23,959 bases of DNA from a virus. Position numbers and translations under genes: made by a program. Within the stretch, counting starts at the first letter, position 1. Every line of letters begins with the position of its first letter. The notes beneath the pieces were generated by a model, which did not search any database, was not told the origin of the DNA, and saw only the letters and a program-made list of their open reading frames with translations. The DNA is taken from positions 1 to 23,959 of IMG/VR virus record IMGVR_UViG_3300044644_002039; one strand, given 5' to 3'. Positions 6,426 to 15,016 of this stretch are shown in pieces.

Positions 6426-6856
6426 TACGCGAGCCCCACTACTACGACGACATGAGCGAGATCGACACCGAGGTGGATCTCATCTGCGAGGAAATGGGCG
6501 TCGGCCCAGCCCTCGCCCGCCGGATCAAAGACTACAAGGATGCCGCCCTCTCGGAGAGCGTGGATTGGGAAGTGGCCCAAATCCTTTCCAAGGTGCTCTC
6601 AGAATTTACAAGGCCCTGCAAAAACATCCGCGCCAAAGTCTATGGGCTGATCTTCGCGGCCGGCCTCGATGAGGCGAACAGCATTCACAGCCAGGCCGAG
6701 ATCGCTCGCCAGATCGATTGCACCCGCGCCCTCGTGAGCCACTACACGACCCAGTGGGCCGACAAGATCCGGCTGGGCGTCTTCAAATTCCGGAAGGCCG
6801 AAAGCTCCAGGCAGACCTTCCGGCATGCACAACTCAAAGCCTGGGAGAAACGATAG
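6422..6856 (+). CDS. Helix-turn-helix protein, probable phage gene regulator, 144 aa
   Basis: The start ATG 6422 overlaps the preceding stop. The N-terminal ~55 residues are acidic and helical; around residues 89-115 (IHSQAEIARQIDCTRALVSH and on to YTTQWADKI) is a helix-turn-helix of the sigma-70-region-4/recombinase-like kind, where 'SQAEIAR..G(C)TRA.VS.Y' is the turn and recognition helix. A basic C-terminus follows (FRKAESSRQTFRHAQLKAWE). It lies in the middle of the early operon, where activators of later genes or replication regulators are often found. A role switching on the late genes would suit it but is not shown. Confidence 0.6.
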   Translation: MIREPHYYDDMSEIDTEVDLICEEMGVGPALARRIKDYKDAALSESVDWEVAQILSKVLSEFTRPCKNIRAKVYGLIFAAGLDEANSIHSQAEIARQIDCTRALVSHYTTQWADKIRLGVFKFRKAESSRQTFRHAQLKAWEKR

Positions 6857-8059: not shown

Positions 8060-8331
8060 TCGCGGAATATGATCCAGACAAATTGGCTTTCCCATGCGAC
8101 ATGGCGGATGTCATCGGGCTTTCAAAGAACGAGATTGCTTTTCTAAAACAAAAGGGGTGTCCGTTTTTTGGCCGGAAGACGACGGTGCGATGGGTGCGGG
8201 ACTTTATAGCGCACCAGGCGGGGGCACCAAGGCTGCCGCAGAATGAGCATCCGACAGGTTCAGCTTCGAATACACGGCGTGAACCAGGCGCGTGGAGTGG
8301 TTCACCAACCTCATCGCTTGGGATTCGCTGA
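8056..8331 (+). CDS. Excisionase-like DNA-binding protein, 91 aa
   Basis: Residues ~14-50 (DMADVIGLSKNEIAFLKQKG, then FFGRKTTVRWVRDFI) form a winged-helix/MerR-like module as in small excisionases (Xis/AlpA type), with a helix-turn-helix and a wing followed by W.RDFI. The start ATG 8056 is coupled (ATGA) and has AAGGA upstream. The last ~43 residues run antisense through the 3' end of the integrase gene and are low-complexity, so only the first ~50 residues are likely to be a conserved domain. Being next to the integrase, a role in directing excision is plausible, though another small regulator is possible. Confidence 0.6.
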   Translation: MIAEYDPDKLAFPCDMADVIGLSKNEIAFLKQKGCPFFGRKTTVRWVRDFIAHQAGAPRLPQNEHPTGSASNTRREPGAWSGSPTSSLGIR

Positions 8332-9226
8332 GACCGGCGCGATGACAACGAGTCACGAACGATACGCGGAGGCTGTGGCTGGTGGCGCCGGTGGCGGTTT
8401 TGAGGATGGAATTAAAGACTCGGTTCTGGTCACCGGTGAGGGGTCCACTGGTGCGGTCGCTTTTTTTAAAAACCTGCTGCAGGTGCTGCGCGAGGCCGGC
8501 GGGCATGGGCACGGCGTATCGCTTCCGAGGGTCGCCGTCCTTCCGCTTTGAATCGATGAGCCAAATGACTTTCTCTTTAAAATCCACATCCTCGCGGCCG
8601 AACTCGGCCTCGCTAAACCGGCAGCCGAGATGGGCGCAGACCTCGAAGACGGTGAGCATCCAATCGGCTCGATCGGCGAAGGCGGCGCGGGCGGCGGCAA
8701 AGTCCTTGGTCGATAGCTCTTTTTTCGGCTTCGGCGCAGTGCGGGGGATCTTGGCGAGCGCGAGGGGGTTCTTCGTGCAGAGCTCTCGGCGGAGCGCCTC
8801 CTGCATGACGAAGGAGAAGAGCTTCAGCTCGAGCCGTGCGGTATTGTGCGATGCACCTTGGTCTTTGCGCCAATCCATGAACTGGCTGGCATGCTCGTAT
8901 CGGATGTCGGCGGGGTGCCTGAGATTGCCCAATCGCATCCACTCGACGCAGCGGGACCAGGCCAGCTCGTATCGTTTCTTTGAGTGCGCGTTTGAAAAAT
9001 GTGCCGTCAAGTATGGTGGCGCCCACTCGATGAAATCTCCCTGGTGGCGTGGCGCGAGCTGGGCCTCGCGGCGTGCGGCGGCTTCCGCCATGCGCTGCGC
9101 TTTGCGCGTCTCCTTGGGGTCATCGATGCGGCATCTGGTGGATTCCTCGCGCCACCGGCCGGTATCGAGGTCGCGGTATTTGAGGATCCAGAACGAGGAC
9201 TTGGGAGTCTGCCGTAAAAACGCCAT
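8204..9226 (-). CDS. int: Tyrosine recombinase (phage integrase), 340 aa
   Basis: From ATG 9226 the 340-residue length is normal for the family. The N-terminal arm-binding part (~1-60) is followed by a SAM-like core-binding domain (~65-165) and the catalytic domain. The catalytic residues are visible: Arg203 (LGCRFSEAE), a Lys around 228, His284 and Arg287 (HSLR), His310 (NHST) and the nucleophile Tyr319 (VYSK). It carries out site-specific integration and excision. An alternative start at 9244 would add six residues. Its promoter region overlaps the repeated CTCCCACA sites from 9236 on, so integrase may repress its own synthesis. The gene points leftward, converging on and overlapping the excisionase-like gene by 128 bp. 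Confidence 0.92.
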   Translation of the reverse strand: MAFLRQTPKSSFWILKYRDLDTGRWREESTRCRIDDPKETRKAQRMAEAAARREAQLAPRHQGDFIEWAPPYLTAHFSNAHSKKRYELAWSRCVEWMRLGNLRHPADIRYEHASQFMDWRKDQGASHNTARLELKLFSFVMQEALRRELCTKNPLALAKIPRTAPKPKKELSTKDFAAARAAFADRADWMLTVFEVCAHLGCRFSEAEFGREDVDFKEKVIWLIDSKRKDGDPRKRYAVPMPAGLAQHLQQVFKKSDRTSGPLTGDQNRVFNSILKTATGATSHSLRVSFVTRCHRAGLSESQAMRLVNHSTRLVHAVYSKLNLSDAHSAAALVPPPGAL

Positions 9227-9235
9227 GGCCTCAGA

Positions 9236-9401
9236 CTCCCACATGCTCCCACACGCATCCACAAAAATCGTGTGGGATAAAGTGGGGGAGCGTTGTTTTA
9301 CAGGGGTTTGCGTGGAAGGGAATTCCCTACCGTTACACCACGAGGCAAGGTTTTGTCTTGTATTTGAAGCACTTGCGGGAGACTCCCACACGGCTCCCAC
9401 A
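9236..9401. other. Putative attP region with arm-type repeats
   Basis: CTCCCACA occurs as two direct pairs: 9236-9243 with 9246-9253, and 9383-9390 with 9394-9401 (10-11 bp periodicity, about one helical turn). Inverted related copies lie at 9271-9278 (TGTGGGAT) and about 9282-9290. Between them is a candidate core with the palindrome AGGGAATTCCCT (9317-9328) followed by ACCGTTACACCA (9329-9340), which looks like the end of a tRNA. Flanking arm sites, a core and an adjacent integrase are the plan of lambda-type attP. The core assignment is inference. Confidence 0.55.
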
Positions 9402-9457
9402 AAAAATCTTGGGGTTGCCGGTGTGCAACGGCTGGGAATCTGGAGCGGGGGGGCTTT

Positions 9458-10633
9458 GTGAGCAAGGACAAAGTTTCTGTGGCCGAGCGGGCGGCGAGGT
9501 ATTTGGCGAAGATGGGGCCTGCGGTATCGGGCGCTGGCGGACATACGCACACGCTTCTTTGTGCTCGGGCTTTGGTGAGGGGGTTTTTGCTGTCGCCTTC
9601 GGAGGCGCTGGGGATTTTGGAAAATTGGAATCAGGGGAATGCGGAGAAGTGGTCGGCGCATGAACTGGAGCACAAGCTGCGGTCGGCAGTGAATGGGCCT
9701 GGGGAGGATGGGTATTTGCTGCGGGAGAGTGATCGCTCGGCTTCGCGCTCGGTGGCGTCTTCTCGAAATCAGGTGCTCCCGACGAAGCCTCGGCCGCGTT
9801 TGGTTTACGAGCCGGAGATGCTGCGGCGTATCGCGGGGGATTTTGCGGCTGCGGTGGATTTGCCTTGGTTGGCGAATCGGTCGGAGGTGGATCCGGCGGG
9901 GGTGGCGGCGGGGGAGTTTCTGTCGCGGCTCTACAATGCCGAGGCGGGCGAGCGGGTGATTGTTTTTTCGGAATACAAAAGCCAGGGGCAGGCTGTGTGG
10001 CCGACTCAGAGCATTCCGACTTCTGGGAAGGATGGCGTTTGGTTTTTGGCTCAGCCGGTGGATGGGAAGCTGCGGCCGAATCCTCGCTTGGGAAAGATGT
10101 CGCGTCGCTCGGAGGAGTCGGTGCTGGCTTGGCGCTGGATGGTGCTGGAATCAGATGAGGCTCCGGTGAGGCTGTGGCTGGGTGCATTGGCTCGGGTTGT
10201 TCCGAGGATTGCGGCGATCACGACTTCTGGAGGTCGCTCGGTGCATGCATTGGTGCGGGTTGATGCGGCCACAAAGCGAGAATGGGATGACATCAAGCGG
10301 GAGGTGCTGGGCCTGGTGGCTGCGGGCGCGGATCAAGGTGCTCTGTCGGCGGTGCGTCTTACGCGGCTGCCTGGTTGCTGGCGGGGGGAGAAGGAGCAGA
10401 AGTTGCTCTACTTCGCGCCGAGTGCTCCGGCTTTGACGATCGCGGAGATGCTGCCTCGGAGGGATGTGCTGGCTTTTTGGCGGGGGGAGTGTCGTCGGGT
10501 GGCGATGGGGGGCTTTGCGGATCGGGAGGCGGTGGCGAGGGCGTTGGCGGGGTGTCGGCACTATGAGCGTTTTGACGATTGGCTGACGAGTGCGGCGGAG
10601 GAGTTGGAGAGAGAAATTTTAACCAAGGAATAA
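9458..10633 (+). CDS. Primase-polymerase (archaeo-eukaryotic primase-like), 391 aa
   Basis: The GTG start at 9458 gives 391 residues. Residues ~33-80 (ARALVRGFLLSPSEALGILE, then W.A.ELEHKL.SAV) match the PriCT-type helical module often found in phage primases, here at the N-terminus. Residues ~225-310 show primase-polymerase-like motifs: a metal-binding ESD (231-233) in RWMVLESDEA, SGGRSVHA (257-264) with the conserved Ser and His, and RLPGCWR (303-309). The protein probably synthesises primers for phage replication. It is followed after 8 nt by the AAA+ helicase gene. Codons are strongly G-ending. Identification rests on motifs, with the metal-binding set only partly visible. Confidence 0.65.
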   Translation: MSKDKVSVAERAARYLAKMGPAVSGAGGHTHTLLCARALVRGFLLSPSEALGILENWNQGNAEKWSAHELEHKLRSAVNGPGEDGYLLRESDRSASRSVASSRNQVLPTKPRPRLVYEPEMLRRIAGDFAAAVDLPWLANRSEVDPAGVAAGEFLSRLYNAEAGERVIVFSEYKSQGQAVWPTQSIPTSGKDGVWFLAQPVDGKLRPNPRLGKMSRRSEESVLAWRWMVLESDEAPVRLWLGALARVVPRIAAITTSGGRSVHALVRVDAATKREWDDIKREVLGLVAAGADQGALSAVRLTRLPGCWRGEKEQKLLYFAPSAPALTIAEMLPRRDVLAFWRGECRRVAMGGFADREAVARALAGCRHYERFDDWLTSAAEELEREILTKE

Positions 10634-10641
10634 AAAATAAC

Positions 10642-12267
10642 ATGAGTGAGATAGGCGATATGGTCAGCTCGAAGCTGGCAGAATACGGCATCGTGCCGGA
10701 TCGTGGAGATGCGGCTGGTGCGGCGGCGTCAGAGAATCCGGAGATGCCGATGGTGCAGATCGTGCCGGTGATCTCGACGATGGCGCGGGAGATCGGGGGG
10801 ATCTTGTCGCAGAATGGTGTCTTCGTGCGGCAGCGCTCGGCGATGACGATCTCGCCTGAGGGGCGGCTGGTGGAGATGTCGGCGCGGCGGTTTCGGACTT
10901 ACTGCGAAGAACACCTGGTGACTTTCAAGTGGGAGATGCCGAAGCCGAATGTCTTTGAGAAGAAGCCCCAGACGATCACGGTGGAGGCGGCGGCGACGAT
11001 TTTGGAAAGCGATCAATTCCTCGAGCGTCAGCGTGAGCTGATGCGGGTTGCGACGGTTCGGCAGCCGGTGCGGCGAAAGGATGGACGGATCGAGCTCCTG
11101 CAGTATGGCTATGACCACGAGGCACAGACTTACACGCAAAACTCGGGGGTGGAGTTTGCATCGGATATGCCGCTGGAAGAGGCGCGGAATGTTTTGCGTT
11201 CTCTTGTGGCGGAGTTTCCTTTCGGTGATCGGAAGGCGGATGGGCAGTCGCGCAATGAGGCGATCGTGATCTCGGCGATGCTGGCGATGTTTGCCGCGCC
11301 GCTGCTGAGGCCGACGGCGCGCAGGATGAACTTTATGTTCAGCTCGAACTCGGTGGGCTCGGGCAAGACGCTGCTGGCGCAGTTGGCGATCATCTCGACT
11401 CTCGGCACATGCGATGTGCAACCGCTGCCGGAGAATCAGGAGGATTGGCGGAAGATTCTCGATACTGAGTCACTGGCAGGCTCGCCTTACATTTTGTTCG
11501 ATGACTGCAATGGCTACCTCAAATCCCCGACCCTTAATGCGTTTTTGACCGCTGCGACTTGGACGGGGCGGCGGATGAATACTCAGATGAAGTTCGCAGT
11601 GCCGAAGATCGCCACGGTCTTCCTGACCGGCAACAACCTCGAGGTCACGCCCGATGTGGCTCGGCGCTTCCTGCATTGCCGAATGCTGACTGACGAGGCG
11701 GATCCTCAGGCGCGGAAGATCGAGAAGGTTTTCTCGGATGAGTGGCTTGAGAAACCCTCGACGCGCGCCCAACTCCTCGCGTGCCTGTGGTCGATCGTGA
11801 GGTCTTGGGATGCGGCCGGTCGGCCTAGCCCAACGCGGATCGTGCGCGGGTATGAACCTTGGTGCGCTGTCTTTGGGGGAATGGTGCAGCATGCCGGCTT
11901 CGGTGATCCGATGGAGCCTCTACCTGTCGAGGAGTCGGGGAACTCTGAGCTCGCGGACATGACTGCTCTGGTGGCTCAACTGGCGAAGGGCGTGGATGAC
12001 GACCAGGAGTTTTGTTTCCAAGATGTCGTCGAGGCGGCCGTGGAGGTGAATGCTTTCACATGGATGCTCGAGGGCAAGGAGGAGAGGGATGGGAAGGACG
12101 GGCCTCGGCGATATGTGCTCACGGCTCGGGCCAACTCGAAGTTCGGCAGGCTCCTCGCCGAGCAGTATGGCGGTAAGAAGTTCCGCCTGCCATCGGGACG
12201 AGTGGTCCGATGGGGGCAGTCCGGCAAGAACCGGCAGCGTGTCTACACGCTCACCGTCCTCGAGTAG
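10642..12267 (+). CDS. Phage replicative AAA+ helicase/ATPase, 541 aa
   Basis: From ATG 10642 the first ~200 residues are a mixed N-terminal domain. The ATPase core follows: Walker A NSVGSGKT (236-243), Walker B ILFDD (284-288), sensor-1 TVFLTGNN (325-332) and an arginine pair at 341-342 (DVARRFLH). This order suits an SF3/D5-like or VirE-like helicase working with the preceding primase. The C-terminal ~150 residues probably include a winged-helix domain (KFRLPSGRVVRWGQSGK). A frame open from 10579 is only the overlap with the primase tail. Transcription ends at the strong hairpin just downstream. ATP-driven unwinding at the phage origin is the likely role. Confidence 0.75.
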   Translation: MSEIGDMVSSKLAEYGIVPDRGDAAGAAASENPEMPMVQIVPVISTMAREIGGILSQNGVFVRQRSAMTISPEGRLVEMSARRFRTYCEEHLVTFKWEMPKPNVFEKKPQTITVEAAATILESDQFLERQRELMRVATVRQPVRRKDGRIELLQYGYDHEAQTYTQNSGVEFASDMPLEEARNVLRSLVAEFPFGDRKADGQSRNEAIVISAMLAMFAAPLLRPTARRMNFMFSSNSVGSGKTLLAQLAIISTLGTCDVQPLPENQEDWRKILDTESLAGSPYILFDDCNGYLKSPTLNAFLTAATWTGRRMNTQMKFAVPKIATVFLTGNNLEVTPDVARRFLHCRMLTDEADPQARKIEKVFSDEWLEKPSTRAQLLACLWSIVRSWDAAGRPSPTRIVRGYEPWCAVFGGMVQHAGFGDPMEPLPVEESGNSELADMTALVAQLAKGVDDDQEFCFQDVVEAAVEVNAFTWMLEGKEERDGKDGPRRYVLTARANSKFGRLLAEQYGGKKFRLPSGRVVRWGQSGKNRQRVYTLTVLE

Positions 12268-12272
12268 AGATC

Positions 12273-12299
12273 AAGGCCCGCCACACGGCGGGCCTTTTT
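12273..12299 (+). terminator. Rho-independent terminator after the replication genes
   Basis: Stem AAGGCCCGCC (12273-12282), loop ACAC, stem GGCGGGCCTT (12287-12296), with a T5 run at 12295-12299. A perfect GC-rich stem six bases after the helicase stop. Confidence 0.92.
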
Positions 12300-12661
12300 G
12301 TTTCCGCATAGGTCATGCAGGGGTCCGCAATGTTCCGACGCTTAACACTACACACCCCCTTCCCCTTTTATCATTTCGCACTGGACCCCCGCACCCACGC
12401 AGCACCCCCGTCTTTTCCATCATTTGCAAATCATTCTCCATCATTGTTTGGATTCTCTCTGATGACTAGGTGGCATAGGTGGCATAGGTCTTTTGGCTTT
12501 TGTGATAGTGGGTATGGGGACAGTCATGTCTTAAAGGCGGAGACCTCCGCACCTGTGTTTCGGTTCCGTTGTCCAAGAGTGCAAAGGAATCTCTTTGGGT
12601 GTGCGTTCTCTGCAGTTTGCCAGTCGCTCGTTACTTTTATGAGAGCGAACCCGAAACTATA

Positions 12662-12720
12662 CGGAACCGGAACCAAGGAACCCGTTCCGCATCCGTTCCG
12701 TTTGACATCGTTCCGTTCCG
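12662..12720. repeat. GTTCCG iteron cluster before the small terminase gene
   Basis: Two tandem CGGAAC (12662-12673) face four GTTCCG (12684, 12695, 12710 and 12715 starts). A GGAACCCGTTCC palindrome lies at 12677-12688. Single copies occur at 12332 and 12563. Repeats of this kind directly upstream of a small terminase gene are typical of packaging-initiation (pac/cos) binding sites. Confidence 0.65.
12701..12707 (+). promoter_or_regulatory. TTTGACA variant element before the small terminase gene
   Basis: TTTGACATCG, 16 nt before ATG 12727, sits inside the GTTCCG cluster. It resembles the TTTGACAC elements of the late genes but with longer spacing. Confidence 0.35.
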
Positions 12721-12726
12721 TAACAC

Positions 12727-13323
12727 ATGAAACGACACGGAAGGGAACAAGCGGACCTGGTGAAGGCGTGCGCCGCGCGACACGGCGTCACTCCGCGCGC
12801 CGTGCGGAAGTGGCGCGACCAGGTGGATCCGCGTTGGAACCAATTTCTCGCCGAGCGCGCGGCTGCCGGAATGATCCCGGTCGGCTCGGCCGCGCCGGCC
12901 GCTCCGTCAATTCCACGCGAGTGGTCGGATGAGGACCTGACTTTGGAAAACCAGATCCGGAAAATGAAAGAGGCCACCGCCGACCTTCGCGAGCGCGCCG
13001 AGTTGGCCAAGTCCGTCGGCGACCTGGACGCCGAAATGTCGCTCCGCCGCATGTGGCTCCAGCACGCCGAGGCCCTTCGCCGTCTCGAGAAAGACGCCCC
13101 TGGCATCAGCGCCGCTTCCGGCGATGTCGTCAACCGCAAGCAAGCCGTCCAGGTTCTCATGCAATACTCCGCCGCCATCGCCGCCGCTCTTTCGAACCTC
13201 CCTGACCGCATCCTCTCTCTCCTCCCTCAAGTCGCCGACGACATCGCCGCCAAGATCCGCGCTGAGGCCGAGGAGGTCCAACGCGCCGCCCAGCAGATCA
13301 ACCCCGATGCCCTCGCTTCTTGA
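12727..13323 (+). CDS. Terminase small subunit, 198 aa
   Basis: The N-terminus carries a basic helix-turn-helix (LVKACAARHGVTPRAVRKWR, residues ~10-29) of the kind small terminases use to bind the packaging site. It is followed by helical, coiled-coil-like segments (IRKMKEATADLRERAELAKS...) for oligomerisation. It directly precedes and overlaps the large terminase gene by 17 nt, the standard order. The GTTCCG iterons immediately upstream are the obvious candidate target. The length is normal for the family. Family identity is inferred from the domain plan and position; there is no sequence signature as strong as the large subunit's. Confidence 0.75.
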   Translation: MKRHGREQADLVKACAARHGVTPRAVRKWRDQVDPRWNQFLAERAAAGMIPVGSAAPAAPSIPREWSDEDLTLENQIRKMKEATADLRERAELAKSVGDLDAEMSLRRMWLQHAEALRRLEKDAPGISAASGDVVNRKQAVQVLMQYSAAIAAALSNLPDRILSLLPQVADDIAAKIRAEAEEVQRAAQQINPDALAS

Positions 13324-15016
13324 TCCCGCAGCTCGCGAGCAACTCTCTCGCATCTGGCAACCCAGCCTTCGGCCGACCGCCCTCGAGTGGGCACAAGAAA
13401 ATGTCACCCTCGACAAACGCTTCTCCCCTCGCCCCGGCCGCTACGACGCCGACTACACACCCTACCTTCGCCAGCTCCACCTCTGGTTCTCTGATCCAAA
13501 AATCCGTCAGCTCACCTTTGTAAAAAGCGCCCAAGTCGGCGGCACCACCTGGCTCGCGAACTGCCTCATGTGGGCCATCTCCGAGGACCCCGGCCCCATC
13601 CTCTATGTGACCAGCACCAACGAAAACGCCAAGTCCTGGTCCGAACGCGAGCTCCATCCGCGCCTCCGCGCCTGCCGCGCCCTCAAGCCCCTCCTCCCCT
13701 CCAACGACGACGACTTCCGAAAAACCGAGATGCACTTCGCGTCTTGCACCCTCAAGCTCGTCGGAGCCTGTTCCGAGGGCAACCTCGCCTCCCGCCCGAT
13801 CCGCTACCTCTTCGCCGACGAGGTCGACAAGTGGCCCGACGACTCCTCCCTCGAAGCCCCTGCCCTCGAGCTCGCCATGGCGCGTCTGAATTTCTACCGC
13901 AAAGTCTCCAAGGCCTGCCTCACCTCCACCCCCACCGTCGAGACCGGCGCCATCTGGTCCCAATTCCTCGCCGGATCCCAGCACCGCTTCCACCTCACCT
14001 GCCCCGATTGCGGCCACGCCCAGCCCCTCCTCTTCGAGCAGCTCAAATGGCCCGAGCACCACCGCGACCTCGCAGGCATGTGGGACCTCGAGGCCGTCGA
14101 GCGCGACACCGTCTACCACTGCTCCGCCTGCCAGAGCCCATGGAATCAAGCCCTCCAGACCGACCTCGTCCGCCGAGGCCAGTGGATCGCCGGAAACCCC
14201 AAAGCCCCCTCCGACCACATCTCCGCCCACATCTCCGCCCTCTACTCACCGCAGATCTCCTGGGGCAGCCTCGCCCGCATCTTCCTCCAGAAAAAAGAAA
14301 CCACCGGCGGCCTCCACGATTTTTACAACAACTTCCTCGGCATCCCCTGGGAAAACCGCGCCGCCCAGGTCAAAGAAGACGCCATCCTCGCCCTCCGCGA
14401 CCCCACCTACCGCATCGCCACGCTCCCCTGCGAGCCCGTCGTCCTCACCCTCTGCGCCGACCCCGGCGAACGCCAGACCCACTGGACCGTCGAAGCCCGC
14501 ATCCAATCCGGCGAGAGCTGGCTCATCGACTACGGCACCGTCCTCGCCATCGAGGACTTGATCAGCCCCGAGTTCCTCGCGGCCCGCCGCTACCATTTCG
14601 GCGAAAAAACATTCACCCCCCGCTTCGGTCTCATCGATTCCGGCTGGTCCGCCGAGCGCGTCTACACCGTCTGCGCGAAATCCGGCGGCGTCTACATGCC
14701 CTCCAAAGGCTCCACCGCCAGCTTCGGCACCTGGACCCAGTCCGCCGTCAACGGCTACCCCAGCCTCCGCCTTGTCACCTATGTCGATCTCACCGCCAAG
14801 ACCGAGCTCTACCTCGAGCGCGTGAACAAAAAAATGCCCCCCCTCCTCCACCTCCCCGCCGACACCGGCACCGACTTCATCGGCGGCCTGACCGGCCAGC
14901 AACTCCTCCAAAACAAAAACTCCCGCCTCAGTCCGTTCTTCTGGAAAAAAGTCGCCGAAGACCATTACGGCGACTGCACCAAACTCCACGGCGTCGCCTG
15001 GTGGGTCTTGAAATAG
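13307..15016 (+). CDS. Terminase large subunit, GpA type, 569 aa
   Basis: ATG 13307 (MPSLLDPAAREQL) lies inside the small-subunit gene; 569 residues is normal. The N-terminal ATPase shows the deviant Walker A KSAQVGGT (73-80), as in lambda gpA where the key Lys precedes the loop, and Walker B YLFADE (167-172). Two Cys pairs, CPDC (232-235) and CSAC (272-275), form a zinc site seen in GpA proteins. The C-terminal nuclease has acidic residues in LCADPGER (Asp385) and GLIDSGW (Asp444). It drives ATP-dependent DNA translocation into the procapsid and cuts concatemers. A long frame at 13570-15183 is an Arg/Pro-rich shadow. Confidence 0.93.
   Translation: MPSLLDPAAREQLSRIWQPSLRPTALEWAQENVTLDKRFSPRPGRYDADYTPYLRQLHLWFSDPKIRQLTFVKSAQVGGTTWLANCLMWAISEDPGPILYVTSTNENAKSWSERELHPRLRACRALKPLLPSNDDDFRKTEMHFASCTLKLVGACSEGNLASRPIRYLFADEVDKWPDDSSLEAPALELAMARLNFYRKVSKACLTSTPTVETGAIWSQFLAGSQHRFHLTCPDCGHAQPLLFEQLKWPEHHRDLAGMWDLEAVERDTVYHCSACQSPWNQALQTDLVRRGQWIAGNPKAPSDHISAHISALYSPQISWGSLARIFLQKKETTGGLHDFYNNFLGIPWENRAAQVKEDAILALRDPTYRIATLPCEPVVLTLCADPGERQTHWTVEARIQSGESWLIDYGTVLAIEDLISPEFLAARRYHFGEKTFTPRFGLIDSGWSAERVYTVCAKSGGVYMPSKGSTASFGTWTQSAVNGYPSLRLVTYVDLTAKTELYLERVNKKMPPLLHLPADTGTDFIGGLTGQQLLQNKNSRLSPFFWKKVAEDHYGDCTKLHGVAWWVLK

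Follow-up and report, generated by a model that had tools for sequence, protein, structure and literature searches.

A probable lambda-type attachment site with a tRNA-Gln 5'-end core in a temperate virus of Verrucomicrobiota

Does a repeat-rich segment of 166 bp in a piece of viral DNA mark the point at which a phage enters a host tRNA gene, and if so, which end of that gene does it take over? The segment (positions 9236–9401) lies between a divergent integrase gene (int) and a primase-like gene in a stretch of 23,959 nt, here called the window, whose other genes (terminase, portal, ClpP-like protease, endolysin- or amidase-like) point to a tailed phage. The tRNA genes are classic phage landing sites; nearly all known cuts fall at the anticodon loop or further 3', and the tRNA promoter is kept. 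A cut at the start of the tRNA means that the virus must supply the leader, a means of transcription and the first 21 nt. Our analysis indicates with high confidence that the segment is the attP of a lambda-type (bivalent) tyrosine integrase, which recombines a 21-bp core with nt 1–21 of the host tRNA-Gln(CUG) gene. The phage itself is a temperate virus of environmental Verrucomicrobiota.

Layout of the segment and its integrase gene

The features of the region, in order along the window, are as follows.

8204–9226, minus strand: tyrosine integrase gene, 340 aa (PHROG integrase, 1.1e-35; Pfam Phage_integrase just below the cut-off)
9236–9243, minus strand: int-proximal arm-type site 2, TGTGGGAG, 10 bp from int-proximal site 1
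9246–9253, minus strand: int-proximal arm-type site 1, TGTGGGAG, at +94 from tRNA nt 1
9271–9278, plus strand: inverted arm-like copy, minus-strand reading ATCCCACA, kept in the nearest TGTGGGAG relatives
9283–9290, plus strand: inverted arm-like copy, minus-strand reading CTCCCCCA, also in close relatives
9298–9310, minus strand: weak IHF-like element CAAACCCCTGTAA, 6/9 of the consensus (8–9/9 at the same position in several relatives)
9327–9347, minus strand: common core of attP, TGCCTCGTGGTGTAACGGTAG, equal to tRNA-Gln(CUG) nt 1–21 (5' acceptor strand, nt 8–9 and D-arm)
9363–9375, minus strand: IHF-like element CAAGTGCTTCAAA, 7/9 of the consensus, 15 bp outside the core, at the same position in many relatives
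9383–9390, minus strand: int-distal arm-type site 2, TGTGGGAG, 11 bp from distal site 1
9394–9401, minus strand: int-distal arm-type site 1, TGTGGGAG, at -54 from tRNA nt 1
9458–10633, plus strand: primase-like gene (PHROG DNA primase) on the other side of attP, with a counterpart at the attL end of the prophage in the MAG G004

The integrase has the complete R, H-x-x-R, H/W, Y set, and R203, H284, R287, H310 and Y319 are invariant in 12 integrase relatives. In an AlphaFold model, residues 1–50 (pLDDT about 80–91) form a three-stranded sheet and a helix, a predicted N-terminus resembling an arm-binding domain, and the best PDB match of the predicted fold is full-length lambda Int. The int gene is undivided, with the core outside it, about 100 bp upstream. 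An excisionase was not identified.

Read on the plus strand, the four arm-type sites are exact octamers, CTCCCACA, and the sole exact copies in the 23,959 bases, all inside 166 bp (expectation from shuffling 0.76; at least four copies in 1 of 100 shuffles). Start-to-start distances are 10 bp in the int-side pair and 11 bp in the distal pair, and 129 bp separates the pairs, which confirms the four direct repeats in two pairs with helical spacing described in the first-pass annotation; the two inverted related copies that it placed between the pairs are present as well. Octamers with one mismatch occur at chance level across the window (20 against 20.6 expected), so what marks the site is the clustering of the octamers, their phasing and their conservation in relatives. 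IHF-like elements recur on both sides of the core (15 bp to the left, 17 bp to the right); some relatives have strong versions and the window weak ones, and HU/IHF-family proteins are encoded by the hosts.

The palindrome AGGGAATTCCCT, which had been counted as part of the core, is present at 9317–9328. A relative with an integrase 94% identical (L006) has GGGAATTACC there; the palindrome is therefore not conserved and is unlikely to be important. A fold pairing the core with the int start region was likewise dropped, since relatives do not conserve the pairing. ARAGORN found no whole tRNA in the window, Rfam returned chance matches only for 9150–9500 (mir-299, hairpin made by the inverted repeats), and blastn with 8900–9600 found no match among the INPHARED phage GenBank records.

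Core and junctions in integrated relatives

A search of the window allowing three mismatches located the core at 9327–9347 only, with 0 occurrences in 100 shuffles; it sits between the paired TGTGGGAG repeats, ~100–120 bp upstream of int. The integrase, used as query against viral contigs, yielded 14 relatives, and the core or a near variant adjoins int in 14/14, even where the integrases are just 45–52% identical. When the regions upstream of int were compared, a 20-nt string, TGCCTCGTGGTGTAACGGTA, or near variants of it persisted everywhere despite quite different arm letters. A pattern scan for strings of this type returned 76 stretches, mainly of two sorts: whole tRNA-Gln genes, and sites linked to an integrase and holding the first 20–21 nt of tRNA-Gln only; with both scans combined, the core lies next to this integrase family in 30 viral contigs. 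One 47-kb viral contig (L085, 14029–14049; IMGVR_UViG_3300032282_004853) ends exactly at the 21-nt core, probably because assembly or trimming broke off at the att repeat.

The end of the core separates two isoacceptors. Cores ending in GGTAG, the window's among them, match tRNA-Gln(CUG), and those ending in GGTAA match tRNA-Gln(UUG). A tree of 27 integrases requires three or more changes of this label; related integrases have thus exchanged one isoacceptor for the other as target. By pattern search, a complete CUG-type gene was found once each in the MAGs G003, G004, G005 and G007, which are incomplete, and in the host MAGs tRNA-Gln(CUG) appears to be a single-copy gene.

A scan of named genomes by integrase alignment gave six relatives, all in Verrucomicrobiota MAGs, most of them labelled Spartobacteria, Chthoniobacter or Chthoniobacterales. 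Four of the six (L092–L095) have host DNA upstream of the core instead of a phage arm, and the other prophage ends were located by searching these genomes for the core. In the Chthoniobacter flavus MAG (G004), attR (C20:4742) and attL (C20:34898) have 30.2 kb between them; the order is host leader, core and int arm at one end, and phage arm, core and intact tRNA-Gln(CUG) at the other, where attL carries two TGTGGGAG arms. In palsa_1379 (G007), the junctions (C3:243631 and 287962) lie 44.3 kb apart, and in five congeners the left flank runs unbroken into the whole tRNA-Gln(CUG), which is the empty attB. ARAGORN recognised an intact tRNA-Gln at the attL of G004 and G007 and also in L097, and in L036 a phage arm as in the attP of L016/L028 is joined to a complete tRNA-Gln(UUG). 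For G004, where the left flank and the tRNA are not adjacent in its family, joining the flanks gave no synteny proof of an empty site. The two junction pairs are each on a single contig, in MAGs for which binning or assembly errors are possible.

The maps of the window and of the G004 prophage are permuted at the core. By blastn, 9327–15015 of the window matches 34918–29240 (75.7%) and 8084–9348 matches 6002–4741 (72.7%); collinearity breaks exactly at the core, and the halves that touch in the window stand at opposite prophage ends. The left arm of the window resembles the phage side of attL (58/77, shuffled maximum 44) and the right arm the phage side of attR (76/104, shuffled maximum 57), neither of them the host side. 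The nearest lysogen with both junctions has an integrase 78% identical to that of the window, and we infer that the window's own phage integrates as its relatives do. The block shared by attL and attR is nt 1–21 only, and the anticodon loop begins at nt 31, about ten bases beyond it. The crossover must fall inside 9327–9347; since the attL and attR cores are identical, it is placed only to the 21-bp block as a whole.

These junctions bear out the lambda-type attP with arm repeats adjoining int and a tRNA-derived core that the first-pass annotation had proposed, and they overturn the end of the tRNA that it chose. In its plus-strand reading, the core could be the 3' end of a tRNA (T-loop remnant, acceptor strand and CCA), in which case integration would replace the 3' end of the gene. 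The plus strand does give CCGTTACACCA, and 3' fragments make up most of the known tRNA attP cores (PMC4383910). However, in every attL found, phage DNA precedes tRNA-Gln and leads into its 5' end, the common block is nt 1–21 on the minus strand, the junctions of both G004 and G007 contradict a 3' end, and no tRNA with the proposed 3' sequence came to light. The chance that the core is a 3' end is, in our judgement, close to nil. What does stand is the tRNA origin and the remark that the reverse strand looks like a D-arm, which is correct for nt 1–21 of tRNA-Gln.

Arm sites can double as regulatory sites, and the position of the segment between divergent int and primase-like genes would suit operators of a repressor or an activator, with the tRNA-like piece incidental. 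Such a role for the repeats is very improbable as the explanation of the segment, however, because attL and attR of the prophages divide the repeats with the core at the break, and from clade to clade the repeats change their letters but keep a geometry bound to the core.

Two host loci add side observations. In G005, the leader of a tRNA-Gln(UUG) (L102, ~1520 on C5) resembles a decayed phage distal arm (ttgagggagcagcgcaggag...aagtgcttca) and may be an old attL, or else the counterpart of the attR of L093/L107. One Spartobacteria MAG (G003; L091/L110) holds an unsplit attP on a 5.6-kb contig together with an apparently empty tRNA-Gln(CUG), which suggests an extrachromosomal phage or a mixed bin.

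Arm geometry and exchange of leaders

The arm octamers differ by clade and read TGTGGGAG, GTGACACT, TGGGGAAC, TGTGAAAC, TGTGGAAC or TGTCCCCC. Across clades, the int-side pair is 10 bp apart and lies about +94 to +96 from tRNA nt 1; in most clades the distal pair is 11 bp apart, at -54 or, ~one helical turn nearer, at -45, and in L013 the distal arm set is arranged differently. Drifting letters with fixed geometry and core would fit an arm-binding specificity that co-evolves with its sites. A hybrid attP occurs in L024 (core 6648–6667, minus strand) and in L086, which is identical to it over 4500 nt: the distal arms are of the TGTGAAAC type of L016/L028 and the int-side arms of the TGTGGAAC type of L026/L045, as if attP halves had been exchanged between two phages using the same tRNA.

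In the recombination that we propose, the integrase would bridge the paired arm sites and the 21-bp core, probably with a bending protein of the IHF/HU type, and the core would recombine with nt 1–21 of the host tRNA-Gln(CUG) gene. Since this core corresponds to the tRNA 5' end, the prophage would supply that end and the leader. At attL, an intact chimeric tRNA-Gln would thereby receive a new 5' end and upstream leader, and at attR, the host leader with the original promoter region and a 21-nt stub would come to lie ~120 bp ahead of int. Within the G007 genus, the conserved TTGCGG...TTACGT-type block of the host leader is present at attR and absent at attL, which demonstrates that the original upstream region is displaced. 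Promoter exchange is thus observed as a rearrangement; its presumed transcriptional effect is that a promoter in the phage leader would drive the tRNA and the tRNA promoter would drive int. The overlap of attP with the int promoter, which the first-pass annotation had put forward, is plausible.

A promoter and terminator consensus scan of 9150–9520 returned nothing, and no strong sigma-70 promoter was found in the phage leader. Position-constrained sigma-70 scores were weak, also in host leaders (median p 0.30 for host and 0.37 for phage, a comparison of low power). The best candidate takes the core-proximal arm as -35 (GTGGGA, GTGACA or GTGAAA, by clade) with a -10 about 12–16 nt before the tRNA, scoring mostly within shuffles; in the window, the GTGGGA of int-distal arm site 2 coincides with the -35 of this weak candidate.

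The attP may be rightly identified with no functional exchange of promoters, an outcome that we hold possible and somewhat doubtful: tRNA-Gln would be transcribed by phage read-through or from an unrelated promoter, and int from its own promoter between core and int. The absence of a convincing -35/-10 in the phage leader speaks for this, as does the right-hand TTGATT-like element of relatives, which could be an int -35; the element at 9298–9310 of the window could alternatively be one too. On the other hand, the primase-like gene is the nearest one upstream at attL, and in the window arrangement its transcription points away from the tRNA, which makes read-through from it unlikely; moreover, the host leader with its TTGCGG...TTACGT block demonstrably stands at attR.

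Tentatively, and with a good deal of reserve, we suggest a wider reading of the exchange. Here, nt 1–21 would be a further tRNA subsite for a bacterial phage integrase family, with promoters swapped both ways, so that the phage leader, with its core-proximal arm site acting also as -35, drives the host's only tRNA-Gln(CUG), the tRNA-Gln promoter drives int, and occupancy of the arms by integrase couples lysogeny to the supply of tRNA-Gln. The int leader has a hairpin, TCCCACACGATTTTTGTGGATGCGTGTGGGA, at 9247–9277 on the minus strand, made of an arm site and an inverted copy; by analogy with the reported int leader of ICEKp1, this hairpin could act as an attenuator of transcription arriving from the tRNA promoter at attR.

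Comparison with known integration systems

The system offers a clean natural test of an element taking over the expression of an essential tRNA. It adds a phage family with assigned Verrucomicrobiota hosts, and it provides integrases whose arm sites change around a fixed target and geometry. A description of this integrase/attP family was not found in the literature searched, the coverage of which is incomplete.

The lambda attP has the same bivalent integrase, paired arm sites flanking a ~21-bp core, IHF-like elements between them and int adjacent. The lambda attB is intergenic, whereas here the core is a tRNA 5' end, the arm sequence differs and the bending sites are putative.

Bacterial tRNA subsites, as given in the part of PMC8371274 that draws on Williams 2002, are the anticodon loop, the T-loop and the T/acceptor junction. 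As at these common sites, the tRNA fragment of attP restores the tRNA on integration, and an intact tRNA-Gln stands on one side; crossovers at the common sites, however, fall no further 5' than the anticodon loop, and nt 1–21 is none of the three. The Islander collection has 5' fragments in 159/3,919 islands and 3' fragments in 3760/3919, and it places crossovers either in the anticodon or in the T/acceptor region (PMC4383910). With a common block limited to nt 1–21, the present site falls outside the classes of PMC8371274 and PMC4383910.

Several systems share parts of this arrangement. The integrated int of ICEKp1 also lies downstream of a host tRNA promoter, and its excised form uses a promoter from the other end (PMC13023037); with ICEKp1, however, insertion is at the 3' end of the tRNA, whose own promoter stays in place, whereas here the tRNA would lose it. 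In dusA-associated islands the target gene likewise has its 5' end and its upstream region replaced, but that target is a protein gene (PMC4482086). In tRNA-dependent lysogeny the tRNA is not restored and the phage carries a replacement tRNA (PMC10865867), whereas the relatives described here restore the tRNA and the window is without a tRNA gene.

A precedent for the target is archaeal. Integration into the 5' half of a tRNA gene, at the cost of its original promoter, is known for pTN3 and rarely encountered in bacteria (PMC8371274). In pTN3-type elements (PMC8371274, PMC5495485), attB is also the 5' part of a tRNA, and the restored tRNA is parted from its original promoter region. Their 41-bp block, however, reaches the anticodon, and their attP lies inside the integrase gene, which is split on integration; in the window, the block is 21 bp and the attP lies outside an intact int, in a bacterial phage with arm sites.
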